Shown: positions 19,112 to 39,530 of the stretch, piece after piece
Numbering within the stretch: the first letter of the stretch is position 1
How the letters are laid out: each line of letters opens with the position of its first letter
The notes under the pieces: model-generated
The model's input: the letters and a program-made list of their open reading frames with translations, nothing else
Database searches by the model: none
Told to the model about the DNA's origin: nothing
From: Arcobacter sp.
GTDB taxonomy: Bacteria > Campylobacterota > Campylobacteria > Campylobacterales > Arcobacteraceae
Assembly (NCBI GenBank): GCA_020048055.1
Contig: JAIFNA010000006.1
Coordinates: 62,001-126,000 of the forward strand
Direction of reading: 5' to 3'
Length of the DNA stretch: 64,000 bases
Program-made: the position numbers and the translations under genes

Positions 19112-23312
<4,201 letters not shown>

Positions 23313-23313
23313 A

Positions 23314-23368
23314 AAATGATAATGGACAAGATAAATTGATAATAGGTTCATTAAAATTTGATAATGAG
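23314..23368. promoter_or_regulatory. three TnsB/TniA-type binding repeats in the left end
   Basis: The core TGATAAT, preceded by an A/T-rich triplet, occurs three times: AAATGATAATGG (23314-23325), AATTGATAATAGG (23334-23346) and ATTTGATAATGAG (23356-23368). Tight clustering within about 70 bp resembles the right end of Tn7. Segment 23349-23367 is a perfect 19-nt inverted match to 39498-39516 in the other end. Transposase binding is inferred. Confidence 0.8.
23336..23365 (+). promoter_or_regulatory. possible outward-cargo promoter inside the left end
   Basis: TTGATA (23336-23341) and GATAAT (23360-23365), 18 bp apart, point into the TnsE-like/herA/nurA operon, whose ATG follows at 23381. 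Both hexamers lie within the putative TnsB sites 2 and 3, so transposase binding could repress it. Readthrough from mnmG is an alternative source of transcription. Confidence 0.35.
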
Positions 23369-23380
23369 ATAGAAATCTAA

Positions 23381-25090
23381 ATGGCAAAATCAAAAAGTAT
23401 CATTCCAGAGTTTATGTCAAATAATCCAAATGATACTTTTAAATTTCTTTTACCTCTTAGATTAAAGCTAGATTTTGAGAATTATGGCAATAGTCATTTT
23501 GAAGTTGTAGTAAAGAATATGGATAAAAATGAAGTATTCTTATATGAAATGGCTCCTGAACTTTTATTTACTCATTATGCCCTTGAGAAGCCTTTTATTA
23601 ATGGTAAAAAAGCAAAATTTCATAATAATAAACATATAGATGAATATAATTTTACAATTGATACGAGTAACCTAACAGAAAATTCAACTCTTAAATTATC
23701 AGAATTACTTAGTGAAAAAAATATTGTATCTTTGGTGGGTTGGAAAAGAACATATTTACAAAAAGCAAATAACATTAATTGTTACTATTTTAAGCAAAAT
23801 AATCTCAAAATCATTATTCCTTACTATGCAGTTGCAGTTTATTATTACTATAGGTTCTCAGAGCTTAGAGAGGCTGTATTAAATTGTAACTTAGAAGATT
23901 TATATAGCAGCTGCTTATGTGATAGAGATGATGCTTCAATTGTATTAAAAAATCCCAGAAGTGATGAAGATGCAGCATTTATTCATAGGTTTGCATGTCA
24001 AGAAGTTGCACACAAAGCTTTTGATGATATAGGAAAATATGTAAATACTTATCTAAAGTATATGAAAGAGAAATATCCAAATGAATCGATAGAATCAATT
24101 CCAATAAAGGCAAAGTTTCCTGTAAAAGAAGAATTTAGAATTGATACAAGAGCAACAAGATTTATTAATGAAGAAACTGGAGAGATATTTTATTTTGTCC
24201 ATGAAATTATCAATGATTATTCAGATATTGGTTTTACAAAATTTACAAAGATACTAGAAAATAACAAAATTGACCCAATTATAGACTTTGATAAATTACC
24301 AAAGGTAGATAAAACTGACCCAAATAATACAACTGAAATATTAAAAGTTGTACATGCTTCAAAAAAATATACCCAAAAAAGTATTCAAAAAAATCGAAAA
24401 AACAGTTGCGGAAGTTTGAAAAATATAGATATATCTCGAATGGAAGTTACAAAAGATGAAATTAAAAAGATTTTAACGATTTATCAAGAGAGTTTTTCTG
24501 ATGAAGAAGTGGACCAAAGTTTAACTGATTCCTCTGGTAATGGTGATAAAAAGGTAAGAAAAGTTGTAGTTTCAAGTAGTTTTGAGAAAGAACAAAAAGT
24601 AACTACACCACCAGAAAATGTATATAATTTCGATGAGTTTAATCAATATATGAATTATCTAAAACAGCAGTCTGTAATCGAAAACTTTCAATTAAATGAA
24701 GTACAGAAATTGCCAGAAATTGTTATAGATGCTGATATAAATAAAATAAATCCGAAATGCATTATACAAGGAAGGCTACGGCAATATATCACGGCGACAT
24801 TTAAGTATAATGGTTTTTATGTGGGATTGTTAGAGTTAGAAAATGCTGAAAATGTATCCGTAAGTACCTGGGTAATTGTTTCAAATAAGGTAGTAAATCA
24901 AACTATGTTTGATAGGTTTATCAGTAAATATTTAGAAGAAAATCTTGACATTCAAAGCATGAAAGCTAGGTATGAGCACAATGATATTAGATTTAAATTT
25001 ACTACTAAGAATCATGAAAAAACTAATAATTTGCAGCAAACTGATTTGTCTAAGTGGTTTGTGGGATTGTCGGGGAAAATTAAAATTTAA
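23381..25090 (+). CDS. HerA/NurA-associated protein, possibly TnsE-like
   Basis: A 569-aa soluble protein without transmembrane segments or obvious catalytic motifs. From memory its layout loosely resembles Tn7 TnsE: a beta-rich N-terminal part, a segment with an I-I-P-Y helix region (NLKIIIPYYAVAVYYYYRF near residue 145), an F-V-H-E-I strand near 265, a charged linker (about 310-430), then a compact C-terminal domain with LPEI and YNGFYVGLLELENAENVS near residue 480. TnsE binds DNA ends and the beta clamp during Tn7 targeting. No alignment was run, so identity is tentative. It is first in a tight operon with herA and nurA, starts 12 bp inside the last TnsB-like repeat, and lacks a clear Shine-Dalgarno. 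Confidence 0.45.
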   Translation: MAKSKSIIPEFMSNNPNDTFKFLLPLRLKLDFENYGNSHFEVVVKNMDKNEVFLYEMAPELLFTHYALEKPFINGKKAKFHNNKHIDEYNFTIDTSNLTENSTLKLSELLSEKNIVSLVGWKRTYLQKANNINCYYFKQNNLKIIIPYYAVAVYYYYRFSELREAVLNCNLEDLYSSCLCDRDDASIVLKNPRSDEDAAFIHRFACQEVAHKAFDDIGKYVNTYLKYMKEKYPNESIESIPIKAKFPVKEEFRIDTRATRFINEETGEIFYFVHEIINDYSDIGFTKFTKILENNKIDPIIDFDKLPKVDKTDPNNTTEILKVVHASKKYTQKSIQKNRKNSCGSLKNIDISRMEVTKDEIKKILTIYQESFSDEEVDQSLTDSSGNGDKKVRKVVVSSSFEKEQKVTTPPENVYNFDEFNQYMNYLKQQSVIENFQLNEVQKLPEIVIDADINKINPKCIIQGRLRQYITATFKYNGFYVGLLELENAENVSVSTWVIVSNKVVNQTMFDRFISKYLEENLDIQSMKARYEHNDIRFKFTTKNHEKTNNLQQTDLSKWFVGLSGKIKI

Positions 25091-25110
25091 TATAAATGGG
25101 AGTAGTTTTT

Positions 25111-27216
25111 ATGGCATTAGATACAATAGAAAAACAATTGGCAAAACAAAATGAGTTAAGTAGTTTAATAAGTAACATTGATAAATTACATGTAGGATAT
25201 GTAATTATAATGCAATATGATTCTGTTAATATTTTAACTAATGATTTTTTTAAAGAAGAAGCAGGTGGTTTACCCCAAAATAGTTTTTTATTGGCTACAG
25301 CATTTGACCCTAATAACTTTAAAAATTCTAAAGACCTTGACCAAATGGTTTTATTACTTCGTGTTCAAGGTTCACATAAATTACCTCAAGATGATATTAA
25401 CCTAAATACAATCATTGAACATTTTCAAGGGCTTGAAGATATTGTGCCAGCTGATAGTAGAGATGGTATTGAACAAATTACACATTCAATTTTACAATTT
25501 GGTGGATTAAGCTGTAATATCTTAGGGTGTTTTTATTTAGATGAACATAATAGACTATGTTTAGGAGCGGATATAGAGGATTTTCAATCGGTTGCACACC
25601 TAAGAGTGTATAAACCATCTAATGAAGCTCTATCAACAATAGTTAATTTTATTGATCCACTTAAACTTCATAATATGGAATCTTCCGCAATAAAAATGGG
25701 ATTTGATAAAATGCCTCAAGCATTTGAAATAGGAACAGTCAGGTATACGTCAACCAATAGAATACAAAAACGTGAACAGACAGATAAAGTAATTGTTAAA
25801 ATACAGCCAACAGATTTTTTAAGTAGAAGAACTGCTGTATTGGGAATGACTAGAACAGGTAAATCGAATACAATCAAAACTACCGTGTCTGCAGTAGCCC
25901 ATGCAGCCATAAAGTCTAATTTAAATATTGGACAATTGATTTTTGATTTAAATGGAGAGTATGCTAATGCTACAGGACAAGACGATGGTTCTTCAATTGC
26001 AGATGTGTTTGCAGATAATGTAGTAAGGTATAGAGGATTCCCAAAAGATGGTTTTGAGGATTTAAGAGATAATTTTTATAAATCATTAGTAGCTGGATTA
26101 AATATGCTACAAAGTGTACTTAGTGAAGATGGATTTAATAATGGCCAAGATATGCAAAATCTAATCAATATGAGTCTTGATGAACCAGACTTAGTTGAGA
26201 AGTCTGAGCACTTAAGATGGCAAAAACGTGCTGCAATGTATAAATGTTTATTATTTAAATCTAAGTTTGAATTTAATCCGGAAGATAATTTTATTAAGTT
26301 TGTAGTAGGTGAACAAATTTTTAGACAGATGTATGATGCTTTATTGTTAAATGAAGATAAACCAGAAACTAAAATCAAAATTGAATTAAGAATCAAAAAA
26401 GCACAGGAAAATTTCAATGACCCAAATAAAGGACTAAGCCTTAAAGATATGACTACCTTTTTTGAGTATGTACGTGAAGCCGATAGAAGTACTAGAGCTA
26501 ATCAAAAGAAAAATAAAGAGTTGATAACAGGATTAGTATCTTCTAGTGGTAATAGTTGGCTAGAACCAGTTGATAAATCATTGTTAAATTTATTAGTTAG
26601 TGAAGCAGAAAGTGGAGGCTATATACGTTCTACTGGTACAATAGGAAAATTTAAAGTTTTCCATTCGAAAGTAGGGAGTGATAATATTCCAAGAGATGTA
26701 TATAGCCATTTGAAAAGTGGGAAAATTGTTATTTTAGATTTATCAGTAGGTGATCAAAAAGTAAAAGAAAGAATTTCCAAGCAAATAGCAATATATTTAT
26801 TATCTCAAGCATCAGAAAATGTAAATAGTGGAAAAGATCCTATTCAAATAGTAACATATATAGAAGAAGCACATAACTTAATTGGTAAGAAATCGGATTT
26901 AACAGAGATATGGCCAAGAATAGCAAAAGAAGGTGCAAAATTTGGAATTGCTTTAGTCTATGCAACACAAGAGCCATCATCTGTTCATCCAAATATAATG
27001 GCCAATACTGAAAATTTTTTTATTACGCATTTGAATAACGATGACGAATTAAGAGCATTGTCGAAGTATTATGATTTTGCAGATTTTACTGCTTCATTAA
27101 AAAAAGCGCAAGATGTTGGTTTTGCAAGGATTAAAACTTTATCATCTCCATATGTTGTTCCTACTCAAATATTAAAATTTGAGCCACAGAAGTTAAAAGA
27201 AATTATTTTGAGATAG
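25111..27216 (+). CDS. herA: HerA-type hexameric DNA translocase ATPase
   Basis: About 701 residues. An N-terminal HAS-barrel-like region (FEIGTVRYTS... near 205) leads into a FtsK/HerA ATPase domain. Walker A is AVLGMTRTGKSNTIK near residue 245-252, Walker B is VTYIEEAHNLIGK near 583-595, and the HerA sensor region is YATQEPSSVHPNIMANTENFF. HerA pumps DNA and works with NurA nuclease in end resection (archaea) and in several bacterial anti-phage systems. ATG 25096 is possible, but GGGAG at 25098-25102 supports ATG 25111. Only a few bases separate it from the genes on both sides. Confidence 0.88.
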   Translation: MALDTIEKQLAKQNELSSLISNIDKLHVGYVIIMQYDSVNILTNDFFKEEAGGLPQNSFLLATAFDPNNFKNSKDLDQMVLLLRVQGSHKLPQDDINLNTIIEHFQGLEDIVPADSRDGIEQITHSILQFGGLSCNILGCFYLDEHNRLCLGADIEDFQSVAHLRVYKPSNEALSTIVNFIDPLKLHNMESSAIKMGFDKMPQAFEIGTVRYTSTNRIQKREQTDKVIVKIQPTDFLSRRTAVLGMTRTGKSNTIKTTVSAVAHAAIKSNLNIGQLIFDLNGEYANATGQDDGSSIADVFADNVVRYRGFPKDGFEDLRDNFYKSLVAGLNMLQSVLSEDGFNNGQDMQNLINMSLDEPDLVEKSEHLRWQKRAAMYKCLLFKSKFEFNPEDNFIKFVVGEQIFRQMYDALLLNEDKPETKIKIELRIKKAQENFNDPNKGLSLKDMTTFFEYVREADRSTRANQKKNKELITGLVSSSGNSWLEPVDKSLLNLLVSEAESGGYIRSTGTIGKFKVFHSKVGSDNIPRDVYSHLKSGKIVILDLSVGDQKVKERISKQIAIYLLSQASENVNSGKDPIQIVTYIEEAHNLIGKKSDLTEIWPRIAKEGAKFGIALVYATQEPSSVHPNIMANTENFFITHLNNDDELRALSKYYDFADFTASLKKAQDVGFARIKTLSSPYVVPTQILKFEPQKLKEIILR

Positions 27217-27224
27217 GATAATAT

Positions 27225-28646
27225 ATGGCATTTAAAAATGAATCCGCTAGTAAACATGGGCATTCTAATATTACTTCCAATCCAGATGTTAAAAAGTTTC
27301 TCGAAAGATGTCCAGATGTAGAAGTACCAACCAAGAAAGATTTAGAGGAGCATATTAAAAAGTTTTACAAAGTTGATGATTTTCATGCAGAACTTCCTAA
27401 ATTGCTTTTGGCCATAGATTGTTCTTTTTATGAGTCTTTTGTTGATGAAGAATATCCCAGTAGACAAGTTGGATATATAAAGATAAGCTCTGTTTTATTA
27501 AATATGGAAAAGTATTTAGATATAGGAAATACTCAAAGTAAATATATCAATCCCAGAGAAATTGCTCGATTACAAAAAGAAATTGATACTATTAGTTTAG
27601 CTCTGCCTGGTGCCTATGTTAGACTACCTGAATGTGATACAGTTACTGAAACTTTTAGAAAAACATTATTGGATTATTTAAAAGGGGAGACAACTAGATT
27701 AAATGGAAAAACATTATTTGATACTCTAGTTGTTTTAATAGAATATTTAGGTCGAATAAAAACAGATCAGGAAGGAGTTAAGCATATTATATTTTCTAAG
27801 TGTGCAGTCAATAATTGTCAGGAACAAGCTAAGGCAAAAGGTTTTAAAATTTATTTGGATATAGATTCAGGAATTGGAATTTGTCCTATTTGTAATTGTA
27901 ACAATTATGCTTCAGATGTTTTAAGAATTTTCGAAGAATTTTCTGAGACAGATAGCAATGTTCAGGCTGATAGTCGAATTATGAGTTTTTTAGAGCATTT
28001 ATTAGCAGTTCATTATATATATTATTTATGGAAAAATGATTTTAATCTATTATCTAAAATGTGTGTGTTTTTAGATGGACCATTAGCTATATTTGGTCCA
28101 AGTGCTGTATTTAGAAAGGCAATTATGTTATTGATAAATGATGTTAGAGAGTATGCTAAAAAACTTGGGTTTGAAGAGCCATTAATAATGGGATTGTCTA
28201 AGACAGGACGAGTTTATGAACATTTTCTAGCAGCAGATAGAATTTCTAAAGATTTTATTCAAAAAGGAACATTTTTTATGATTAGTGATGAATATCGATA
28301 TAGATTTATTGATTCAGCCCAAAAAGATCATAAAAAAAATCATGGTGAAGGCACTTATTACGGTCAGGATATCTTTATTAAAACTAAAAAAGGTGGAAAA
28401 TTTGTTGTTAGTTTAGCTTATCCTTTTAAAGATAAAGGAGAAGGTTTTCAAACAAGAAAATTAGAAGTAGATAAGTATACAAAGTTAGCGCATGCAATAA
28501 CTGTGATTCAAGAGTTAGAAGCAGATTTATACGATAATTCTGTTGTTCCATTAGTATTAGCTCATAAACATACATCAATTAGCTTAAAACCTGGAGGGAA
28601 AGTTTTAGATATTCTTACAACTGAGGCATTTAAAAAGACGAAATAA
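27225..28646 (+). CDS. nurA: NurA-type nuclease with an inserted Cys cluster
   Basis: A 473-aa protein with the NurA layout. The N-terminal metal motif is LLLAIDCSFYES (Asp65), the middle VFLDGPLAIFGPSAV motif is near residue 283 and MGLSKTGRVYEHF near 325. A C-terminal DLYDNSVVPLVLAHKHTSIS segment resembles the last NurA block. NurA is an RNase H-like, Mn-dependent DNA nuclease that works with HerA. Between the first and middle motifs sits an unusual C-x4-C...C-x2-C-x-C cluster (Cys193, 198, 220, 223, 225), probably a zinc knuckle for DNA or partner binding. AGGA precedes the ATG. It is last in the operon and convergent, 4 bp from the methyltransferase. Confidence 0.78.
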   Translation: MAFKNESASKHGHSNITSNPDVKKFLERCPDVEVPTKKDLEEHIKKFYKVDDFHAELPKLLLAIDCSFYESFVDEEYPSRQVGYIKISSVLLNMEKYLDIGNTQSKYINPREIARLQKEIDTISLALPGAYVRLPECDTVTETFRKTLLDYLKGETTRLNGKTLFDTLVVLIEYLGRIKTDQEGVKHIIFSKCAVNNCQEQAKAKGFKIYLDIDSGIGICPICNCNNYASDVLRIFEEFSETDSNVQADSRIMSFLEHLLAVHYIYYLWKNDFNLLSKMCVFLDGPLAIFGPSAVFRKAIMLLINDVREYAKKLGFEEPLIMGLSKTGRVYEHFLAADRISKDFIQKGTFFMISDEYRYRFIDSAQKDHKKNHGEGTYYGQDIFIKTKKGGKFVVSLAYPFKDKGEGFQTRKLEVDKYTKLAHAITVIQELEADLYDNSVVPLVLAHKHTSISLKPGGKVLDILTTEAFKKTK

Positions 28647-28650
28647 TAAG

Positions 28651-29490
28651 CTATATTTTTAGGGAGTTAAGATTTAAATTACTGGCAATAAATTCTTTTT
28701 TTAATATTCTTTCTTTATTTGCGGACATTGTATATCTTATATTAAAGAAGCCATAATTAGAAAAATCTTTATATAAATTGCTTATTGGTGGTTCATAATC
28801 GTAACTTAGTAACCAATGAGTGTTAAGATGGTATATAAAGTTTTTAAGTTTAATATGGTCATCATCCAGAAAATAAAAATTATAAAGATCTTTTGCCTTG
28901 TTTACATAAGGAGGATCAAAATAGATAAAAGATTCATTGTTAATATGATGTTGATATTTATTTAAAATTTCACTGTAATCACCTTCTTCAATAAAAAGTA
29001 TTCTTTCTTTATATTTTGCTAGTACTCCAATTGTATTTATTAAAGTATTTTTATTAAATCGACAGTCTATTTTATAGTTAGAAATTTGTTTTTGTCCTCC
29101 AATTGGACCAGCTTTTAAAATACCAGAGAAACAAGTTCTATTTAAAAATAAACATTTTAAAGCTTTACTTCTTATTGTTTTAGGGTTATGATTTTTGTAA
29201 TACTGCCAAGTGTCTAGCGTAACATCTATTTTTTTTATTTTTTTTATTAACCATTCGCTATCAAAAAAAACTGTTTTCCAGAATGAAGCTAGAAGAGGAT
29301 CTTTTTCAATTAAAGCAATTTTTTCAGTCAAATTATTTTGTAGCATCAATAATGAAACACTTGCTCCTCCAGCAAATGGTTCAATAAATAATTTTGATTT
29401 AATATTATTTTTATCAAGTATATTTTTAAATGTTTCACAAAATTTTTGTTTAGATCCAGGGTATCTTAACGGGCTTTTTACTATTTTCAT
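28651..29490 (-). CDS. DNA N6-adenine methyltransferase (D12 class, Dam-like)
   Basis: A 279-aa D12-class enzyme. Motif I region is LFIEPFAGGASVSLLML near residue 35-50, the N-terminal substrate motif is SPLRYPGSKQKF near 6-17, and the catalytic DPPY is at 192-195 (FIYFDPPYVNKAK). It methylates adenine in a short DNA target, often GATC, but specificity cannot be read here. No restriction endonuclease is adjacent, so it is either an orphan or marks self DNA for a neighbouring cargo system. A TATAAT lies a few bases upstream of its ATG on the minus strand. It is tail to tail with nurA. Confidence 0.9.
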   Translation of the reverse strand: MKIVKSPLRYPGSKQKFCETFKNILDKNNIKSKLFIEPFAGGASVSLLMLQNNLTEKIALIEKDPLLASFWKTVFFDSEWLIKKIKKIDVTLDTWQYYKNHNPKTIRSKALKCLFLNRTCFSGILKAGPIGGQKQISNYKIDCRFNKNTLINTIGVLAKYKERILFIEEGDYSEILNKYQHHINNESFIYFDPPYVNKAKDLYNFYFLDDDHIKLKNFIYHLNTHWLLSYDYEPPISNLYKDFSNYGFFNIRYTMSANKERILKKEFIASNLNLNSLKI

Positions 29491-29544
29491 AATTTGATTA
29501 TAGTGTAAAAAAGAATTTTTGGCCAGAGCTATTTTAAGTTTTGG

Positions 29545-32109
29545 TTAATCAAAACTAATCTTTAATTGTTTATTTTTTTCTTTTTTTTCATTTATCTTTA
29601 ATTCAAAATTATTGAATGAGCCTTCTCTCTCATTTTCTAAATACACTTCTAGTTTCAATCCATCATTAATTTCTATTTCCAGTAAATTAGTTTTCCATTT
29701 ATTAAGCGATATAGGGATAGTTATTCTTGCAATATGTCTTTGATTGTCAAATAATTTTTGTGTATCTTTATATTTATTAGTCATTCGTTTTTTAGGTATA
29801 GCACTATATTTTATTTCTTTAATTTTATTGTCTAAGTTAGTAAATAAATTAGTGGTTTCTTTCTCTTCGGGAGCATTTGGCAAAGGATTTTCTGTATCTA
29901 ATAATATTTTACCTTCCAAAAAACTTCCAACTTTAGAACGTTTTTTATTTTGTCTTTCTATTAAAGCTTCTTTTTCTATATTTAAATGGTATAGTATTGA
30001 ATCAATTATTTCACTTACGTCTGCTAATTCTGATAAAAGTTCATCTTCTTCAGCTGAATCAAATACTTCAAATGCTTCTTCTATTAATTTATCTTTTAAA
30101 GCTAAAACGATGGATTCTTTTTCTAATTGTACAATATTTACAACTTCTCCACCTTCTTCAATGAATTCTGGTATTTTATCTCTTACTAGTTTATTATATG
30201 CTTGTTTATCTTCAAACTCATCAAAAGGGTGATATATTTCTACTTGTGCACCAGTTTTTGCCAATTGGTAAAATGCATGAGAAAGAACACTTCCTTCAAG
30301 TAAAATAACTGCATCTATTTTTTTCGCCAAAAAACCTATCTTTTCAAGTATATTCTTATCTCTCAGCAAATTATCTTCCATAGGTTGTATATGAATTCTT
30401 TTAACTTTAAGTGGGTTTTCCTCTACTTCTTTTTCAAGCTGTACTAATTGTTCTAGAGTATTAATTGTAAATGATTTATCAAAAGAAGTTTTTCTCCTAG
30501 ATTTTTTTGAAGTTGATACAAGGTTGATATCAAATTCTTCATGATGCCAAGGTAAGATTTGATTTGTACATATTTCTTTTGGTACATCAATAAACCACAT
30601 TATACTTAATGGTTTATTTACATCATTTGCAATTATTTTTGATTGTAAAGCAATTTCTTTGAGCCATATTGAATTCTCAGGAATAGTTAGCTTCCAATCA
30701 AAAGGAGCTTGTAATTCTTTCGTATTCCATTTCCCTTGATTATCTGAAGTTACAAAATATTTTTTATAACTTTTTTTAAATTCAACTAAATAATTATCAA
30801 CATTTGTATTTATTAATGTTGATTTTGTGTCAATAACATATTTGTCATGAGAATTATAATACAACCCTTCTGGTAATCCCCATAGTGCTTCAATCATTAC
30901 TTTTCTATTACTTGGATCAGCATAAGCAAATGCTGAAGAAGTAGCAGGAATAAAATTATGAAAAAGAAAAGCTATATCTATATTATCATCTAATATTTTA
31001 TCTATAAAATCATTTGCATTTTTTATTAACCAACTTTTTACACTATCAATATTTCTAAATTCTTCTCTTGGTAATAGTTGTTTTTCTTTTCGAGTAGTAT
31101 TTATATCTATTCTAATCATTAAAGGGTTTTTTATTAATTCTTGTAAATCATTTTCTAAACTACTACTAAATTGACTATTAGTTATTTCTTTTAGAGTAAT
31201 TTTATCTTCAAGTATGTATAGAGGAGCAATTGGTAAATTTAACTTTTTGTATATAAATAAGTTATTAACTTTTGAATATTTTCTAGCATGTTCTTGTGTT
31301 AATAGTTGTAATATTGACGGGGTGAAGTTATTTAAAAAATTATACTCCAATGATACTTTAGTAGGATCTATCCCTATCAAGTCATATTCTTCATCAGCTT
31401 GAACTATATATATAAAGTATCCATCCCAAACCCATTCATAATGAATTCTTAATTTATTATGACTAGCCCATGTTGCAGGTATTTTTAAAACTTCTTTAAT
31501 TGAGTTTTTTGATGAACAAATAAGTTTACAATTTAAATATTCATTAAAATTAATTTCTTCTCTCCATGTTCTCAGTGGAATTTTAAAATGTTTATTGTCT
31601 GGTTTTAATTCATCTTCAAATTCTCCTACCCAGTCTCTTTTGTGTTCACTCATTCTTCTTTCATTAGATAAATGTCCAAAACTAGAGTTGGCCAAAATAT
31701 GTTTTTGGATAATTAATGGCATGGAATCATTAGTATCTGTTTTGAATCTAAGAAAATAGTTTTCAAGTAAAATTTCTAAATTATCAATTGAGCCACAAAT
31801 TGAAAATAGCTGTCCCCTTTCTAATAAGCCTTCATTTGAAGATGATGATCTTATAATAATATTTTCATTTTCATCAAAAATACTAAGTATAGAATCTTTT
31901 ATAATTGATTGCCATTTTTTAAGCTCTGAAATACCAGATTTTGTAAAGTCTGAAGATATAACAATAAACGGTAAAGTCCAATTAAAAGGAATAGATGATA
32001 AACCATAAGCTTTTTCTCCCACCAAATCAATTGTAATTTTAGAAGGAGATATCGTTTTTAAACCTTTTTGATTAACAAAGTTTATTTTATTAATTGGTAA
32101 AAATGGCAT
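29545..32109 (-). CDS. PEP/pyruvate-binding ATP-grasp - phosphohistidine swivel - MazG-like fusion protein
   Basis: An 854-aa multidomain protein. Residues about 25-150 resemble the N-terminal ATP-grasp part of PEP synthase/PPDK (VGEKAYGLSSIP, IIIRSSSSNEGLLERG). Residues about 380-430 carry FHNFIPATSSAFAYADPS and IEALWGLPEGLYYNSHDKYV, like the second half of that fold. Residues about 598-625 (DAVILLEGSVLSHAFYQLAK) match the swivelling domain, with His611 as likely phospho-carrier. Residues about 638-720 (NKLVRDKIPEFIEEGGE, LIEEAFEV, ELADVSEIIDSIL) are a MazG-like nucleotide pyrophosphohydrolase with its acidic ligands. The last 110 residues are unassigned. It is downstream of the membrane and HIT genes; a nucleotide-linked phosphotransfer role is inferred. 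Confidence 0.72.
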   Translation of the reverse strand: MPFLPINKINFVNQKGLKTISPSKITIDLVGEKAYGLSSIPFNWTLPFIVISSDFTKSGISELKKWQSIIKDSILSIFDENENIIIRSSSSNEGLLERGQLFSICGSIDNLEILLENYFLRFKTDTNDSMPLIIQKHILANSSFGHLSNERRMSEHKRDWVGEFEDELKPDNKHFKIPLRTWREEINFNEYLNCKLICSSKNSIKEVLKIPATWASHNKLRIHYEWVWDGYFIYIVQADEEYDLIGIDPTKVSLEYNFLNNFTPSILQLLTQEHARKYSKVNNLFIYKKLNLPIAPLYILEDKITLKEITNSQFSSSLENDLQELIKNPLMIRIDINTTRKEKQLLPREEFRNIDSVKSWLIKNANDFIDKILDDNIDIAFLFHNFIPATSSAFAYADPSNRKVMIEALWGLPEGLYYNSHDKYVIDTKSTLINTNVDNYLVEFKKSYKKYFVTSDNQGKWNTKELQAPFDWKLTIPENSIWLKEIALQSKIIANDVNKPLSIMWFIDVPKEICTNQILPWHHEEFDINLVSTSKKSRRKTSFDKSFTINTLEQLVQLEKEVEENPLKVKRIHIQPMEDNLLRDKNILEKIGFLAKKIDAVILLEGSVLSHAFYQLAKTGAQVEIYHPFDEFEDKQAYNKLVRDKIPEFIEEGGEVVNIVQLEKESIVLALKDKLIEEAFEVFDSAEEDELLSELADVSEIIDSILYHLNIEKEALIERQNKKRSKVGSFLEGKILLDTENPLPNAPEEKETTNLFTNLDNKIKEIKYSAIPKKRMTNKYKDTQKLFDNQRHIARITIPISLNKWKTNLLEIEINDGLKLEVYLENEREGSFNNFELKINEKKEKNKQLKISFD

Positions 32110-32114
32110 TTAAT

Positions 32115-32660
32115 TTAGCTCTTATTATTATTATTTGTTCCAAAAATTACGTTTGCAATTTCATACATTTTACCTACAGCTTCATCTGCAAAGTATCCGG
32201 AAAGGAAACCTATAGATATTATGGTTGTACCATTTAGTATTTTCCCTGTATTTATAAAACTTGCTTCAATAAGTATTCCTACCATTAATGCAATAATTGC
32301 AGAAATTATAGGTGACATTAGTCTCCAAATTCTTCTATCTTGATTCCACCACCCTCTAGCAACAACTCTATAAAAATATTTCATCCCAAATGTTAATCCG
32401 CCTAACATTCCAGATAGAGCAAAATAAAGGTATTTTTTTGCTTGTAATTGTAATGGTTCAGGTATACATAAAATATGAAATATTGAACCTGTCCATGTAC
32501 ACAAGAGTAACCCTAAACAGATTACAACTAAAGAAATTAAAAAAGCAGTTTCTTGCCAAATTTCTTTTTTTATCAAATCATCATATCTACTTTTTACATT
32601 ATCTCTCGCTCTACCGTCTGTATTATCTATATCAACTTTTTCTGAAATATTGTTTGACAA
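32115..32660 (-). CDS. four-helix membrane protein of the HIT/PEP-binding operon
   Basis: A 181-aa protein with a charged cytoplasmic-looking N-terminus of about 40 residues and four predicted transmembrane segments: about 38-56 (TAFLISLVVICLGLLL), 78-96 (LYFALSGMLGGLTFGM), 115-132 (ISAIIALMVGILIEA) and 143-160 (TTIISIGFLSGYFADEA). A conserved-looking WWNQDRRIWRLMSP loop links helices 2 and 3. I do not recognise the family. It lies 5 bp upstream of the fusion gene and 12 bp downstream of the HIT gene, so the three are very likely one unit. It could be a membrane effector or anchor; that is speculation. Confidence 0.65.
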   Translation of the reverse strand: MSNNISEKVDIDNTDGRARDNVKSRYDDLIKKEIWQETAFLISLVVICLGLLLCTWTGSIFHILCIPEPLQLQAKKYLYFALSGMLGGLTFGMKYFYRVVARGWWNQDRRIWRLMSPIISAIIALMVGILIEASFINTGKILNGTTIISIGFLSGYFADEAVGKMYEIANVIFGTNNNNKS

Positions 32661-32672
32661 TTTATTTCCTTA

Positions 32673-33287
32673 TTATGCGGATAGTTTTAAGTTTTTAATA
32701 GTTTTTATACTATTTTCTATAAATTGAAATTCTTTATAATTTGATTTTTCAAATTTTCCATAATAATCAGCAATTAGTTTTCTAAAAAATTGAGAAACTG
32801 GAAAATCTAATATTGATAAATAACCTTGAGAATTATCCCACTTATTATTTAATTCAGTATAAAATAGATATTCCTTATGTTTAGAAAAATTATTTATATC
32901 AGATGGGCGACACTCTGTCCAATTTAAATTAGAATGTTCAAGTTTATTAATCAAACTTTTAGGAAATGGCACTAAATGTAAATGAGCATGGTCCGTTCCG
33001 CAACCAGTAGGAGAGCCTTCCTTGTTTGTACCATGTTCAAATGCAATTACTTTCCCATACTTTTGTTCCATAACTGGTAATATATTATTTACGAATTCTT
33101 TTAAATCATCCTGTTGATAAAAGTCTTTCATAGATAGTGTATGATTTTTAGGGATTATTAATAACCATCCTTCAATAATTGATCCCAGAGATGAGATGGC
33201 AAAGAACTTATCATTTTCAAAAATTGGCTTGTCAATTTCTCCATAAGCATAGGATTTCTGAAGTATATTACAAAATCTACATTCCAT
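32673..33287 (-). CDS. HIT-family nucleotide hydrolase/transferase
   Basis: A 204-aa HIT protein. It opens with a CRFCNI motif like many Fhit/HinT-branch proteins, has GWLLIIPKNHTLSM near residue 40-53, and the complete histidine triad DHAHLHLVPF with His100, His102 and His104. HIT enzymes cleave or transfer nucleoside monophosphates from phosphoramidates, dinucleoside polyphosphates or adenylylated adducts. The C-terminal 90 residues are longer than in minimal HinT. It is the first gene of the putative HIT / membrane / PEP-binding-MazG operon and begins 58 bp after tniQ, so it may be read from the tns promoter. Confidence 0.88.
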   Translation of the reverse strand: MECRFCNILQKSYAYGEIDKPIFENDKFFAISSLGSIIEGWLLIIPKNHTLSMKDFYQQDDLKEFVNNILPVMEQKYGKVIAFEHGTNKEGSPTGCGTDHAHLHLVPFPKSLINKLEHSNLNWTECRPSDINNFSKHKEYLFYTELNNKWDNSQGYLSILDFPVSQFFRKLIADYYGKFEKSNYKEFQFIENSIKTIKNLKLSA

Positions 33288-33345
33288 ATAGTTATCCTTA
33301 TTAAATTTATAGTTCCAATTATATCTTACATTGTCTCAAAATATG

Positions 33346-34527
33346 CTACCTAAAAATATTAAACTTTAATGAATGGTAAATTTTAGAAAATCTCTTATTG
33401 ATAGTATAATGACATCCAACAATGCGAGCTACATTTTCTTTATTAACTATTTGACCTATCTTTTCTAAGTATTTAATAGCTCCTAAAACTTCACTTTCAC
33501 TAATTTCTCTACCAGTAGTGTTATGCGGTGGTACTAAACTATCTACTAAATTTTTATACCAAAAAGGGATATCTTTAAAACTATGAGCAAGTTCTCGATG
33601 AGTTAAATGGTTCTCTTTTGCAAAATTTATAAAGTTATTTGGATAATTTTGAAATAGATGATATACCATAGCTGTTAGAAAAAAGCTTTTATAAATCGGA
33701 AGAGCTTTTTTTGAATCATAATTATCACTTCTTTTGCAAAGTTTTTTATAGTTTTTAAGTAGTGGAAATTTATCAAGTTTTAGCTTCTCTTTTCTATCAA
33801 GTAACCACGATAATCTTGTAAAACTTTCAAATACAAAAAGTGAATTTATTTTTTGTTTATTGATAAGAAAATAGCCTTTTTCAAGTCCTGTTTCAAACCA
33901 TTTTATAGCTTTTAGTCCATAATAAAAATGTGATGTGAGTGGATAAGTTAGAGTTAGTCTTAAATCTCTACCGCATTTACTACAATAGCAGATTTCATCA
34001 ACATCTTTGAGCTTTGATAGAGTAATCTTTTCATGACAGCAACCACATCTATCTGTTAGAAATATTTTATGTTTTGGGCAGGCATTATAGAAAAAGTATC
34101 GCCACTTTTTTCTAAAGTAAGGAATTTCATCTTCTGCTAAACATTTTGGACAGAACATCAATCCATAATGTGTTCTTTTGTCCACTAATTTTCGTATTTG
34201 TTTGGGTGGATATAGACAATTATTACAAGTAAAGAGATGCCCCTCTTCACTTCTAAGTGACATTTTTAAAATATTTAGCCTATCAAAACCACTTTTTATT
34301 GTCAAAGCATCAAGTAATTTTTCATCATATTTAAAATCAATATCTTTTGAACTAATGCAGTTCCCCTCTCGTTTTACAAATAAAGTTAAAAAATCAGATA
34401 GTTTTCTCTTGTGTACAAGTGCAGTTCTTGTAAGCCAAGAGCTTAATAATTCATCTTTCAATGGTTTTGGAATAATCAAAAAGAAATAATCTTGAACCCA
34501 ATTTTTATTTCTTCTTTGTTTTTTCAT
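33346..34527 (-). CDS. tniQ: TniQ/TnsD-family target-selection protein
   Basis: A 393-aa TniQ-type protein. The N-terminal PKPLKDELLSSWLTRTAL segment is the TniQ opening. Zinc-binding pairs follow: CNNCLYPPKQIRKL, MFCPKCLAED, the ACPKHKIFLTDRCGCCHEKI block and CYCSKCGRDL (about residues 97-185). A helix-turn-helix rich C-terminus should read the attachment site. In Tn7 relatives this protein binds the end of the target gene and recruits TniB/TnsC; here the expected target is the 3' end of mnmG. It follows tniB with a 1-nt gap. No CRISPR effector is present, so direct DNA recognition is expected. Confidence 0.9.
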   Translation of the reverse strand: MKKQRRNKNWVQDYFFLIIPKPLKDELLSSWLTRTALVHKRKLSDFLTLFVKREGNCISSKDIDFKYDEKLLDALTIKSGFDRLNILKMSLRSEEGHLFTCNNCLYPPKQIRKLVDKRTHYGLMFCPKCLAEDEIPYFRKKWRYFFYNACPKHKIFLTDRCGCCHEKITLSKLKDVDEICYCSKCGRDLRLTLTYPLTSHFYYGLKAIKWFETGLEKGYFLINKQKINSLFVFESFTRLSWLLDRKEKLKLDKFPLLKNYKKLCKRSDNYDSKKALPIYKSFFLTAMVYHLFQNYPNNFINFAKENHLTHRELAHSFKDIPFWYKNLVDSLVPPHNTTGREISESEVLGAIKYLEKIGQIVNKENVARIVGCHYTINKRFSKIYHSLKFNIFR

Positions 34528-34528
34528 T

Positions 34529-35398
34529 TCATAGTTTTGGCAGATACACTATATCGTCAACAACAATTTTTTCTCTTTTAGATTTTATAGCAGCTACAGC
34601 AGCTTTTTTTACAAGATTGACTGTTTTACCAATAAGCCCTTCGGATTGATAGTAAAGAGCATTTATAATTTCAGGATCATCTGCCATATTTGAAGCAATT
34701 TTAAGAGGCAAACATCTTTCATAGGTAGCCACGAATGATCTAAATTTTCTATCATTATTCCATCTTGGAAGCTCGATGGATGGAAATCTTGTATTTGTTT
34801 CACTTCCAATCGAAAGAGCAGAATGTGCTTCTCTCGTACCAGCTAGGATTATTGTTAGAGACAATCTATTACTAAGTTGTTTTAAATCATTGATAAAAGT
34901 TCGTTGTTTGTTGAGATTTCCTGTTAGAGCATTATGAATCTCATCAATTAAAATCATCCTTGTACCTAATTTATTCAAGTAATGCTCACAAAGTTTTACT
35001 TTTTCAAGGATTTTATCTGTTGATTTATGAGGTACCATCAGTTCATTTAAAATCAAACTGTACAATCTTCCTTCATCAGGTATGGTTGGTGCTTGAAAAT
35101 AAATAATTGGTATTTCATACACTATCTCTGTTTCTTTATCGATATATTCTAAATTTGTTTTATGTAAATCATACATTTTTTTTAAAATAGCCGTTTTACC
35201 ATTATTTGAATCACCATATATCAATAATCCCTCATGTCTCATTTGAGGTGGGTCATCAAATTTATCTTCTAGCAGTTCAATAAGTTTTACAGCAGCTCCA
35301 TATCCAAGCCAATGGTCTTTTTTGCAGTATAAAATTCTTTCTTCATCACTTTTAAGGAGAAATTCTTCTGCTTCTGGTGTTAAATTTATTGTACTCAT
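34529..35398 (-). CDS. tniB: TniB/TnsC-family AAA+ transposition regulator
   Basis: A 289-aa AAA+ ATPase. Walker A is LLIYGDSNNGKTAILKKM (62-69), Walker B is RMILIDEIHNALTG near residue 142-152 and the sensor segment is LTIILAGTREAHSAL. Such proteins polymerise on DNA with ATP, link the target selector TniQ to the transposase TniA, and impose target immunity. The length is that of the shorter TniB type, not of Tn7 TnsC (about 555 aa). It lies between tniA and tniQ, all on the minus strand. Confidence 0.93.
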   Translation of the reverse strand: MSTINLTPEAEEFLLKSDEERILYCKKDHWLGYGAAVKLIELLEDKFDDPPQMRHEGLLIYGDSNNGKTAILKKMYDLHKTNLEYIDKETEIVYEIPIIYFQAPTIPDEGRLYSLILNELMVPHKSTDKILEKVKLCEHYLNKLGTRMILIDEIHNALTGNLNKQRTFINDLKQLSNRLSLTIILAGTREAHSALSIGSETNTRFPSIELPRWNNDRKFRSFVATYERCLPLKIASNMADDPEIINALYYQSEGLIGKTVNLVKKAAVAAIKSKREKIVVDDIVYLPKL

Positions 35399-35407
35399 GA
35401 GTTTACC

Positions 35408-37291
35408 TTAGCCAATTGGATAATATTCATAGCCATCGTCCTCATCTTCATCTAAATTTAGAGAAATATTTTGTAGGTTATTTTTAATCGGATGGCGAGT
35501 TAAAAGTTCGGTTTCTCTCTCAAGAGATTTGTTCAGATGCTTTTTTGAGCTTTGATTTCGTCTGATTGACTTCTTCTCTAATTTAGTTGTTTGCACAAGT
35601 TGATGTAACCTTTCATAAGCCTCAAAAATATCATGAGGTTCCAATTCTCTACCTGTGACAAGTTTTTTAGCTTCTGCTATTGATTTTCTAAGTTCACTAA
35701 CATTGATAGCAGGCTTTCTAATATCTGCATATGGGACAGTTATATAATCTTTAATATCTTCGTCATATACATATATTTTACTAATATCCCTTGGGTCTCT
35801 TCTGCAAATTACATTATTTACAATATTTGGATTGAGCCTTTTGTATTGGGCTGGTATTATCCATTTTCTCAAATTCTCAGAAAAATAAGTTATATAATCG
35901 ATTGTAATCCCATTTTTTTGAACACTTCTTTCAATGGATGGTAACAATGCCATTCTTAATTTCAAGGTATCAGCAGGTACCACGGGTAGAAATGGAATGG
36001 CATTATCTCCCACACCTAAAATACCTTGATATAATTTTTCTTCTGGTGTCATACCAAGTGAACCGTGAACGGTTTTGTGATAAATATTTACTACAAAATC
36101 TAAGAACCATCTTTCAAGTTCATCTATTGTCATCGTAGCATTACCTTCTGAATCATAAGTTCCTTTTTGCAAAATGCTTGAGAAAGTTGAACCTGGCAAT
36201 TGATGCACATTTTGCATACAAGTTTTAATAACTCTCTCCACATGTCCACCAAATTCAGGACGAGCAACGGGACGATATTCATCAGAAATCCTAAATTCTT
36301 GACAAAAGTTATGAAGACTATTGCTGCGGAACTCTTTTGCATTGTCCATATGAATTACTCGTGGAAGACCATAAACAGGGTATTCCCCACCAATATTGTG
36401 TCTTTTCAATAGATCATCTTTTGGAAGTATCGCATTAAGCAAACATTGTCCAACACTAAAAAAACTAGGAGCTTCTAAAGTAATATAAAAACCGTAAATC
36501 ATTCTGCTAAAGACATCAATAGCAACGGTGATATAAGGTCGCCCTATACTTTCCCTTGAGTTTTCATCTACTACGATAACATCAACTTTTGTGTGGTCAA
36601 TTTGGATTACATCCAAAGGCATTTTTACTTCTGGAAATCGATTTGGTGTTCCTCTTGTATCTCTTACACTCAAGCCTTTTCTATACTTTGCAATGATTTT
36701 TGGATTAATATTTTGTATTCTATTTCGGATAGTATTTATGTTTGGTGCCTTCAAACCTGCATTTTTACATTTTCCTTCGATTTTCATATAGATGGTTGAC
36801 AAAGGATATTGCTGTTTGTCTAAATAAAATTCTTCTATCACTGAATCAATAATAGCATCTACAGCTTCATCGAGACGGCTTTTCCCCTTGCCTCCACAAT
36901 GTTCTCTTTTTGTTGCTAATGAGCTTGTTGTGCCATATTCTTCATAAGTACTAAGCCATCGATAAATGGTTGCTATCCCTTTTTTATGTTTTTTAGCAAT
37001 CTTTTTTACATGATCTGCAGTACGATTTTTAATCTCAAGCAGTGGTTCAATTATCTTAAATCGTTCCTCGGCTTTTGTGAAATCTTTTTCACTCGTTTCA
37101 ACCAATGTTTTTGAAGATAGTTTAGAGTTTTTGACCTCTCTGATGATGTCATTTACTTTGAATATTTTTTCACTAAATGGTGCTACTATTTGTTTCGCTA
37201 AAACTTCGTCTAAGGCTGGATATCCTTTGATGATATATTCTTTATCATCAAAAATAATTTTTGAATTAATATCAAGTTTAACGATGCTCAT
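35408..37291 (-). CDS. tniA: TniA/TnsB-family DDE transposase
   Basis: A 627-aa transposase of the Mu/TnsB/TniA group. N-terminal helix-turn-helix domains include KKIAKKHKKGIATIYRWLS near residue 95-113. The RNase H-like core has Asp232 (VIQIDHTKVD), Asp316 (RVIHMDNAKEF) and Glu352 (FGGHVERVIKT), a complete DDE triad. A Mu-type beta-barrel and a charged C-terminal tail follow. It recognises the TGATAAT-type end repeats and joins 3' ends to the target. It starts 14 bp inside the 3' end of tnsA, so translation is coupled. Confidence 0.95.
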   Translation of the reverse strand: MSIVKLDINSKIIFDDKEYIIKGYPALDEVLAKQIVAPFSEKIFKVNDIIREVKNSKLSSKTLVETSEKDFTKAEERFKIIEPLLEIKNRTADHVKKIAKKHKKGIATIYRWLSTYEEYGTTSSLATKREHCGGKGKSRLDEAVDAIIDSVIEEFYLDKQQYPLSTIYMKIEGKCKNAGLKAPNINTIRNRIQNINPKIIAKYRKGLSVRDTRGTPNRFPEVKMPLDVIQIDHTKVDVIVVDENSRESIGRPYITVAIDVFSRMIYGFYITLEAPSFFSVGQCLLNAILPKDDLLKRHNIGGEYPVYGLPRVIHMDNAKEFRSNSLHNFCQEFRISDEYRPVARPEFGGHVERVIKTCMQNVHQLPGSTFSSILQKGTYDSEGNATMTIDELERWFLDFVVNIYHKTVHGSLGMTPEEKLYQGILGVGDNAIPFLPVVPADTLKLRMALLPSIERSVQKNGITIDYITYFSENLRKWIIPAQYKRLNPNIVNNVICRRDPRDISKIYVYDEDIKDYITVPYADIRKPAINVSELRKSIAEAKKLVTGRELEPHDIFEAYERLHQLVQTTKLEKKSIRRNQSSKKHLNKSLERETELLTRHPIKNNLQNISLNLDEDEDDGYEYYPIG

Positions 37292-37948
37292 AATTTAACT
37301 CCACTATTGAATTCATTGTCAATTTTTCTTTGTGTAAATCAGTTTTTAGAAGATTATGTGCAACCATTGACCAGATGGTGTTGGCAACTAAGGTATATTC
37401 TGTTGGAGATTGTGTGATGCTTTGCATTAAATCATTTGCACTTATCTTTTGAGTTGCGATTTTAGTTTTAATTATTGGCTCATATTTTGCAAGAGTTTGT
37501 GGATAGAGTCTGTATCTGTATAAAAAATCTATGTTTGAGATATAAATCTTAGAAAAAAGTATTTCTGTAAAGACAACAAAATCCAAATCTAGTTTATTGG
37601 TAGATTCTCGCACAGCAGCAAACTTCTTCTCAAAATATTCTTTCTCTTGCTCTAAGTCATGGATATATTTTACTTCAACGATAGAGTCTTTTACTTTGGA
37701 AGTTGGTGCTCTATGGATATAGCAATCAGCACTATAAATTTTGTTTTTACCATTAAAAAGATCTCAATTTGAGGTTGTTCTTGATATAAAATCACTTCAT
37801 CATCAAATTCTAGGGTCAAAAATAGTTCTTTTTCAAGTATTGAGTTAAACGCGATTGACTTATTATTTTTGATGCTTGGAAAATGTCCAGTAACTGAACG
37901 ATAGTTTTTTTTGATTTTTCTTTGGGTGAATTCTATGGGAGCATTCAT
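37278..37948 (-). pseudogene. tnsA: TnsA-family endonuclease, interrupted by a 1-nt frameshift
   Basis: The first 65 or so codons (from ATG 37948) carry the TnsA N-terminal pattern GHFPSIKNNKSIAFNSILEK...LEFDDEV with YQEQP. The frame then breaks at a five-base T run on the coding strand (A-run 37755-37759 on plus). Shifting frame there gives NGKNKIYSADCYIHRAP and VEVKYIHDLEQEKEYF, i.e. the remaining Asp and (E/Q)-x-K nuclease elements, and continues to stop at 37278. The rebuilt protein would be about 223 aa. One missing T in the run explains it. TnsA cuts transposon 5' ends; without it transposition becomes replicative. Programmed frameshifting or a sequencing error are alternatives. Confidence 0.85.
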
Positions 37949-38090
37949 TGATTTTAACCATATTTAATTTTATAAAATTGTACAAAAAGAATACTTTTAA
38001 ATAAAGATTAAAATATTTCTTCGTATTATTAACTTATATTAAATATTTAAGAAAAATTTACTATTTTTTATTTAAATCACAGAAAATAGG

Positions 38091-38096
38091 TATAAT
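38091..38096 (+). promoter_or_regulatory. -10 element upstream of the DUF3800 gene
   Basis: TATAAT preceded by GG lies 32 bp ahead of the DUF3800 ATG, in a 180-bp AT-rich gap between divergent tnsA and DUF3800 genes. AGGAAAA just before the ATG is the likely ribosome site. No convincing -35 is seen. Confidence 0.42.
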
Positions 38097-38128
38097 AAAA
38101 ATTGACTTTTTAGACATAGGAAAAATTA

Positions 38129-39265
38129 ATGGAATCAAAAGTAATACCAATTTATTGTGATGAATCAGGTTTTACAGGAGAGAATTTACTACATGATGAA
38201 CAGACAATTTTTTCATATGCTTCGATATCTTGTGATGAAACAGAAGCAGAAGAATTTGTAAAATATATACTCGGAAAATATAAAATACAGACAACAGAAC
38301 TTAAAGGGACTAACTTACTAACACAAAAAAGCGGTAAAGGTAAAGAAGCTATTTTAGAGGTTTTAAGACATTTTAATGGGAAATATAAGGTATCTATACA
38401 TAATAAGAAATTCGCTTTAGCTTGTAAATTTTTTGAGTATATTTTTGAACCAGTTATAGCAAGTTCAAGTACCTTATTCTATAAAAATGACTTTCATTTA
38501 TTTATAGCAAATTTCCTATACATGCTTTTTAGTGTAAACGACCTAAATGCTGAACAAATATTTGAAAAATTTGAGAAATCTATTCGAACTAAACAATTTA
38601 ATAAACTAGAAGCTTTATTTAGTGAATTACAAAATAATCACAATAATTTTATTACACCCATGATAGTAGATTTTATTAAAATTCATTATAAAATCATTAA
38701 AGACGAAATTGAGAACTTACCTAAATGGACATTAGATTTAACAACAGCTTCTCTATACATATTATTAGCTCATTGGAATAAAGACAACAATTATTCTTTA
38801 CAAGTTTTTTGCGATAGTTCAAAACCTTTAGAATATGATAAAACATTCTTTGATTGTTTCATTGGAGGAAATGAAAAAGTATATAGTCCATATATTAAAA
38901 CTACTATTCCTCTTACTTTTAATTTACTAGAGGGAATAAATATGGTTGATTCAAAAACAAGCTATGCAATACAAATTGCTGATATTATATCCGTAGCATA
39001 TGCTTATGCATTTAAGAATGATGATGATTTTTCAAAACAAGTTCAAGGAATTGGAAAAAAATTTTATATAGAAGGAAATATTTTTCCAGATTTTGATTAT
39101 CTTAAATTTGAAAAAAGTTCTGTTCAATTAAATATCATGATATTAAAGGAACTACATTTTAGAAGCAAAAATAAAATTCCTTTATTATCAAACTTTCAAG
39201 AGACAATAAGAGAGATGAATATTCAATTAGTTCTCCAACAATTCATAATAGCCCAAAAAAATTGA
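38129..39265 (+). CDS. DUF3800 protein (RNase H-like fold, putative nuclease)
   Basis: A 378-aa protein with the DUF3800 signature IPIYCDESGFTGENLL at residues 7-22 (Asp11-Glu12). A C-terminal acidic block, VDSKTSYAIQIADIISVAYAYAFKN near residue 275-300, carries the second conserved Asp (ADI). Families with this YxDESG...Q-x-A-D pattern are predicted RNase H-like enzymes and are common in defence islands and mobile elements; activity is mostly untested. It sits alone between tnsA and the right end, on the opposite strand to the tns genes. It reads toward the transposon end, with over 250 bp of spacer. Confidence 0.8.
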   Translation: MESKVIPIYCDESGFTGENLLHDEQTIFSYASISCDETEAEEFVKYILGKYKIQTTELKGTNLLTQKSGKGKEAILEVLRHFNGKYKVSIHNKKFALACKFFEYIFEPVIASSSTLFYKNDFHLFIANFLYMLFSVNDLNAEQIFEKFEKSIRTKQFNKLEALFSELQNNHNNFITPMIVDFIKIHYKIIKDEIENLPKWTLDLTTASLYILLAHWNKDNNYSLQVFCDSSKPLEYDKTFFDCFIGGNEKVYSPYIKTTIPLTFNLLEGINMVDSKTSYAIQIADIISVAYAYAFKNDDDFSKQVQGIGKKFYIEGNIFPDFDYLKFEKSSVQLNIMILKELHFRSKNKIPLLSNFQETIREMNIQLVLQQFIIAQKN

Positions 39266-39369
39266 AAAATTTGTTCTAGATTTTTATTCTCTTAGAGAAG
39301 AAGATGAGCAAAAAATACGAAAATTTTCTCCTTGAATGACTTTATATTATGACATATAAATATAATTAT

Positions 39370-39509
39370 CCAGTATTATCATTATTTAATAGATCATTAT
39401 CAATATTTTACATATTTATTTAAACTTTTAAGATTGGTATATTTAACATGAAATACTGTAAAATCCAAAGAAATTAAGGGATTTCATGCTTAAAATATCA
39501 TTATCAAAT
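39370..39509. promoter_or_regulatory. three TnsB/TniA-type binding repeats in the right end
   Basis: ATTATCAtt-type cores, the reverse complement of the left-end repeats, occur at about 39374-39386, 39392-39404 and 39497-39509. One is at the tip and two are about 100-130 bp inside. This spaced arrangement resembles the left end of Tn7, in contrast to the dense mnmG-side end. Confidence 0.75.
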
Positions 39510-39525
39510 TTTAATGTATCTTACA
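39499..39525. repeat. right terminal inverted repeat
   Basis: Starts CATTATCA and ends GTATCTTACA. Its reverse complement matches the left tip (23298-23324) at 23 of 27 positions. The adjoining 39498-39516 is a perfect 19-nt inverted copy of 23349-23367. Confidence 0.93.
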
Positions 39526-39530
39526 TGAGA
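39526..39530. repeat. target-site duplication, right copy (TGAGA)
   Basis: TGAGA follows the right transposon tip directly and equals 23293-23297. Confidence 0.93.

Follow-up and report, generated by a model that had tools for sequence, protein, structure and literature searches.

The locus studied here, in an Arcobacter sp. genome, raises the question of whether three neighbouring genes, coding for a TnsE-resembling protein, a HerA-type translocase and a NurA-type nuclease, make up a single three-gene system, as the original prediction had it, or whether they belong to different parts of a mobile element. We analysed a stretch of 64,000 nucleotides, hereafter called the window, in which the three predicted open reading frames (ORFs) were found complete between positions 23381 and 28646:

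23381-25090, + strand, TnsE-family target selector, element core gene (569 aa)
25096-27216, + strand, HerA-type hexameric translocase, cargo (706 aa; conserved start at 25111)
27225-28646, + strand, NurA-family nuclease, cargo (473 aa)

The homologues of all three products are conserved over their full length, indicating that these are not chance ORFs. The HerA and NurA identities proposed for the second and third genes were borne out. The HerA product has the Walker motifs of a HerA/FtsK ATPase (Walker A, GMTRTGKS), it matches the Pfam DUF87 family with 47 bits, and its sequence matches in the PDB include HerA and TdpA. The NurA product gave no Pfam match on its own and nothing relevant in a sequence search of the PDB; five of the nine aligned members of its family match the NurA domain PF09376 (best 6e-22), and Asp65 and Asp284, which correspond to the metal-binding aspartates of such a domain, are invariant in the family alignment. 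Structure prediction of NurA from 3 sequences yielded a poor model (pLDDT 48), which was left out of the analysis.

The first gene required other means. The comparison with the Pfam TnsE_C profile (PF18623) that had been suggested for its product gave a match over the full domain (positions 2-141 of 145, E 6e-4), but the score of 20.1 bits lies below the curated cut-off of 26.7. Since a plain HMM search with TnsE_C matched only one of 11 family members, below the cut-off, a fold search was used instead. When the TnsE alignment served as query for a profile search of PDB sequences, no TnsE came up. The alignment-based AlphaFold model was confident for the C-terminal domain only (residues 416-569), the N-terminal two-thirds being poorly modelled. 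The top seven Foldseek matches of this model were all C-terminal domains of TnsE (5d17, E 1.9e-4), the first unrelated match appearing at 0.55. Using VIA-align, the C-terminal domain was superimposed on 9d5l_A with a Z score of 14.1 (145 residues, 3.2 A) and on 5d17_A with 13.3, the next match reaching 7.3. A bridge in sequence is provided by L138, a distant homologue from another Campylobacterota element, which exceeds the TnsE_C cut-off (28.9 versus 26.7 bits). On the strength of the modelled fold and of this bridge we accept the 569-aa protein as a relative of TnsE, from a lineage that has diverged too far to reach the Pfam cut-off; the lack of any TnsE relation, named beforehand as an outcome that would undo the proposal, is thus contradicted by the fold search. 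Residues 84-282 showed weak OB fold matches (Z 4-7) in a low-confidence part of the model, which would agree with the report of two PriB-like domains in TnsE (PMC10293859). No TnsE was found in plasmid and viral collections. A Campylobacterota-type TnsE (49%) was seen on L096, a contig binned as 'uncultured Bacilli' and probably misbinned.

The predicted location at a transposon edge was confirmed, as the TnsE gene starts 83 bp inside the end of an element with the following features:

21441-23312, + strand, mnmG, the target gene (Pfam GIDA/MnmG, junctions), whose last codons and stop now come from the transposon end
23293-23297, target-site duplication TGAGA on the mnmG side
23298-39525, Tn7-like transposon of 16,228 bp in the last codons of mnmG
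23298-23370, + strand, transposon end on the mnmG side, carrying three TnsB-type direct repeats (beginning at 23313, 23333 and 23355), kept upstream in all relatives
23393-23440, + strand, inverted repeat AAAAGTATCATT...AATGATACTTTT in the first TnsE codons, kept in relatives and relics
29545-33287, - strand, further cargo (854-aa protein, 181-aa membrane protein, HIT-domain protein)
33346-34527, - strand, TniQ, presumed selector of the mnmG site (Pfam TniQ, 3.8e-20)
34529-35398, - strand, TnsC, a TniB-type AAA ATPase (Pfam TniB, 6.5e-52)
35408-37291, - strand, TnsB transposase (PADLOC TnsB, 1.1e-45; Pfam Mu-transpos_C and rve)
37290-37948, - strand, TnsA with one frameshift (two overlapping frames)
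38129-39265, + strand, DUF3800 cargo gene between tnsA and the far end
39365-39525, - strand, far transposon end with inverted TnsB-type repeats (39500, 39396 and 39375)
39526-39530, target-site duplication TGAGA on the far side, after which comes the displaced tail of mnmG, ACGAAGAAATAG (compared with the empty sites L043 and L044)

The TGAGA on both sides, the displaced mnmG tail and the empty mnmG sites of the same genus (ATGAGAACAAAAAAATAA and ATGAGAGCTAAGAAATAG) together delimit a 16,228-bp element inside the last mnmG codons. Its termini are TGTAAGAAACA at 23298 and the near-inverse TGTATCTTACA ending at 39525, and the direct repeats, of the form AAATTTGATAATGxxA, are located after the mnmG stop. 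Several TnsB-type repeats, TGT/ACA termini and a 5-bp duplication, as expected of Tn7-like ends, are therefore all present. As a result of the insertion the C-terminus of MnmG reads ..MRCKKQ* instead of ..MRTKK*. Corresponding ends with 5-bp duplications were found in four more genomes (G087, TATTT; G085, ATATT; G048, TAAAA; G046, TACAA), and the insertion point in the relatives is fixed at 29-30 bp past a conserved mnmG codon.

The gene content is likewise that of a Tn7-like transposon, with a TnsB-type DDE transposase, a TnsC-type ATPase and TniQ. TnsE lies at the mnmG end, TniQ, TnsC, TnsB and TnsA are arranged inward from the opposite end, and the cargo lies between them. An intact TnsA of about 222 aa is encoded at the equivalent place in relatives. 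Given its frameshifted tnsA, the window copy may no longer be mobile by cut and paste, and if the frameshift is real and not an assembly error, replicative transposition may be the only mode left to it.

Several further observations were made on this group of elements. In the 854-aa cargo protein, which belongs to no Pfam family, the stretch NKLVRDKIPEFIEEGG was read as MazG-like, and the cargo block at 29545-33287 may be another defence module. In G085 and G048 (L027/L091 and L023/L086) newer mnmG insertions, one of them of a divergent type, sit directly before the end of an older element, from which it follows that the mnmG site has been used repeatedly. Several genomes hold the first 34-55 TnsE codons alone (L015, L016, L017, L018, L019 and L021), mostly just behind mnmG; these short pieces, all ending near the same place, are relics of old element ends. 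The second TnsE relic of G034 sits beyond a newer element. In the inverted repeat at 23393-23440, compared over 19 relatives and relics, 96% of the cells are paired and two pairs are changed on both sides; 9 of 500 shuffles scored as high, and the fold z is only -1.4. This repeat may act as an operator, form a hairpin or belong to the transposon end. At dprA in Campylobacterota we saw a second lineage of elements with TnsE, more distantly related (L129, L132, L134, L135, L136 and L137), with TnsE abutting an N-terminal dprA fragment; L135 and L137 also have a full-length dprA near the TnsE gene.

Within this element, the gene unit that had been proposed holds as far as the HerA-NurA pair is concerned, but TnsE is not part of it and an adjoining third member had been omitted:

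28651-29490, - strand, D12-class N6-adenine DNA methylase, convergent (Pfam; motif DPPY)

Judging from gene neighbourhoods, the actual cassette is HerA-NurA with this convergent methylase, at 25111-29490. A DNA methylase directly adjoins HerA-NurA in 19 of 25 NurA loci (seven of D12 type, the others N6/N4), no neighbouring methylase being seen in the other six, and these 25 loci are not all independent, as two IMG/VR contigs look near-identical. A modification enzyme is thus linked to the nuclease in these 19 loci, in the manner of a restriction-modification system. A Vibrio prophage (HerA 47%, NurA 36%, methylase 34%) and IMG/VR contigs show the layout with a convergent D12 methylase again; two of these contigs start at NurA, so that HerA falls outside the view. 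The N6/N4 version was found on a haloarchaeal plasmid and on a Deferribacter megaplasmid. None of these prophage, contig, plasmid and megaplasmid loci contains TnsE, and similar HerA-NurA-methylase trios without TnsE are present in many other Campylobacterota. Looking for the predicted trio outside Tn7-like elements, as had been suggested, led to HerA-NurA with a methylase in prophages, in plasmids and in other genomes, mostly without TnsE.

From this gene content, and by analogy, the cassette is probably a defence cargo of restriction type. A more specific proposal, to which we give an even chance, is that it represents a distinct kind of restriction system, where unmethylated DNA would be destroyed by a ring translocase together with an end-resecting nuclease, not by a site-specific endonuclease, and which would have been spread across bacteria and archaea by Tn7-like transposons, prophages and plasmids. 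A limited literature search found no paper on HerA-NurA with a methylase as a defence, which does not prove absence. The alternative with the best standing is that the cassette helps to maintain or repair a plasmid or prophage, with a methylase that protects the element and a nuclease that processes the element's own DNA. Its presence on several mobile elements and the role of HerA-NurA as a repair pair in archaea are compatible with this, but coupling to a modification enzyme, here of varying class (D12 or N6/N4), is the pattern of self-marking restriction, and AbiTii is a neighbour of the cassette in a Nostoc plasmid. We consider maintenance or repair rather unlikely.

The proposal that the three genes form one machine, in which TnsE would sense DNA ends or replication forks and hand the DNA to the HerA-NurA translocase-nuclease, draws on their arrangement. 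In the window they are adjacent, on the same strand and tightly spaced, HerA beginning 5 bp past the TnsE stop (20 bp if the conserved start is used), so that TnsE and HerA may be on one shared transcript; they are adjacent in G105 too. Close copies of HerA-NurA were found in only two of these elements, next to TnsE each time. Against one machine, HerA neighbours TnsE in just two of the 32 TnsE loci with a readable next gene, namely the window and G105, and TnsE neighbours NurA in just two of the 25 NurA loci. The other 23 NurA loci lack a TnsE neighbour, and the absence of the first gene from related HerA-NurA loci had been named in advance as evidence against the system. Furthermore, the window and G105 share 80% identity in HerA and 78% in NurA, compared with 45% in TnsE and 64% in TnsB, and the DNA block common to both (25111-29487, 75% over 4,413 bp) extends from HerA through the methylase and excludes TnsE, pointing to a block transferred without it. 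TnsE tracks TnsB and TnsC instead: its pairwise identities correlate with those of TnsB (r 0.91), TnsC (r 0.93) and TniQ (r 0.82; 171 pairs), and the HerA-NurA label is scattered on the TnsE tree, where three changes are needed. Among 397 Campylobacterota genomes, 40 had TnsE matches (relics included) and 15 had solid NurA matches, with 3 having both, an overlap no greater than expected by chance (3/40 versus 12/357, p 0.18). In view of the neighbourhood counts, the block comparison, the tree and the co-occurrence, the idea of TnsE-HerA-NurA as one system is abandoned, and one machine appears very improbable.

The position of TnsE supports another part of the original prediction, a targeting module for the transposon itself, which fits the TnsE gene directly behind mnmG and tracking the core genes. 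This position is found in 20 of the 22 loci of the window's TnsE lineage, and elements carrying TnsE homologues have tnsABC-tniQ inward from the far end and cargo that differs from one element to another. As far as sequence comparison can tell, TnsE is a core gene of the element, HerA-NurA-methylase is exchangeable cargo, and the adjacency of TnsE to HerA-NurA is an accident of cargo position. It is hardly credible that HerA-NurA aids the transposon, for instance through end resection at the donor or target site, and is selected for by the element: archaeal HerA-NurA does resect DNA ends, and TnsE of Tn7 prefers replication and break-repair structures (PMC11406308), but nearly all relatives of the element have the same core without HerA-NurA, and prophages and plasmids that have no Tns genes carry the cassette.

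Overall, we consider it highly probable that the locus is a Tn7-like mnmG element with TnsE as a second target selector and HerA-NurA-methylase as a restriction-like cargo. TniQ would recognise the conserved mnmG coding sequence and direct the safe insertion into the chromosome, and the element end would restore codons and a stop to mnmG. In Tn7, the choice of the chromosomal site falls to TniQ/TnsD, and that of replicating or conjugating DNA to TnsE (PMC11406308); by analogy, TnsE would here provide a second route, with replicating DNA, for example conjugating plasmids, as the target. Two elements of the window lineage with the same end type, G499 and a second copy in G289, lie away from mnmG, which fits such a second targeting route; target duplications of these two copies were searched for and not found, one match being judged spurious. 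The methylase would mark the host genome as self, and a HerA hexamer would pump unmarked incoming DNA into NurA, which would degrade it.

With respect to known systems, the element is a cleanly bounded Tn7-like transposon of Campylobacterota with mnmG as its target site. This site is not named in the main texts of Tn7 surveys including PMC10293859, and a limited literature search found no paper on TnsE with mnmG. An element layout in which TnsE is remote is already known from the comM-targeting Tn6022 family, which has TnsA, TnsB, TnsC and TniQ together with an opposite-strand TnsE at the other end, a long way from these core genes (PMC10293859). Unlike Tn6022, the window element targets the 3' end of mnmG and not comM, has no TnsF-like gene beside TniQ, and completes the frame of its target gene instead of breaking it. 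With Tn7 of Escherichia coli it has in common that it inserts site-specifically at a conserved gene's 3' end, the 5-bp duplication and the fold of the TnsE C-terminal domain; it differs in that tnsE and tnsABCD do not form a single operon, that its TnsC is of the TniB type and that it is inserted among the final codons of its target gene.

The cassette resembles the archaeal and bacterial HerA-NurA end-resection pair in its families and in the order HerA then NurA, whereas the window pair is coupled to a DNA methylase, on a mobile element, and does not lie beside Mre11-Rad50. The best solved-structure match of the window HerA by sequence is TdpA (8wet, 2e-23); in contrast to TdpA and other HerA-based defence proteins, its modification partner is a DNA methylase, and the neighbourhood showed no phosphorothioate genes. 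With 264.6 bits, the D12 methylase fits the PD-Lambda-5_B model of PD-Lambda-5, a compact prophage RM+Abi system according to its authors (PMC9519451), but no PD-Lambda-5_A partner was detected and HerA-NurA stands in its place. The defence question thus moves from the TnsE-HerA-NurA trio to a recurring and testable HerA-NurA-methylase cassette, which is a more interesting lead than the layout of the element that carries it.
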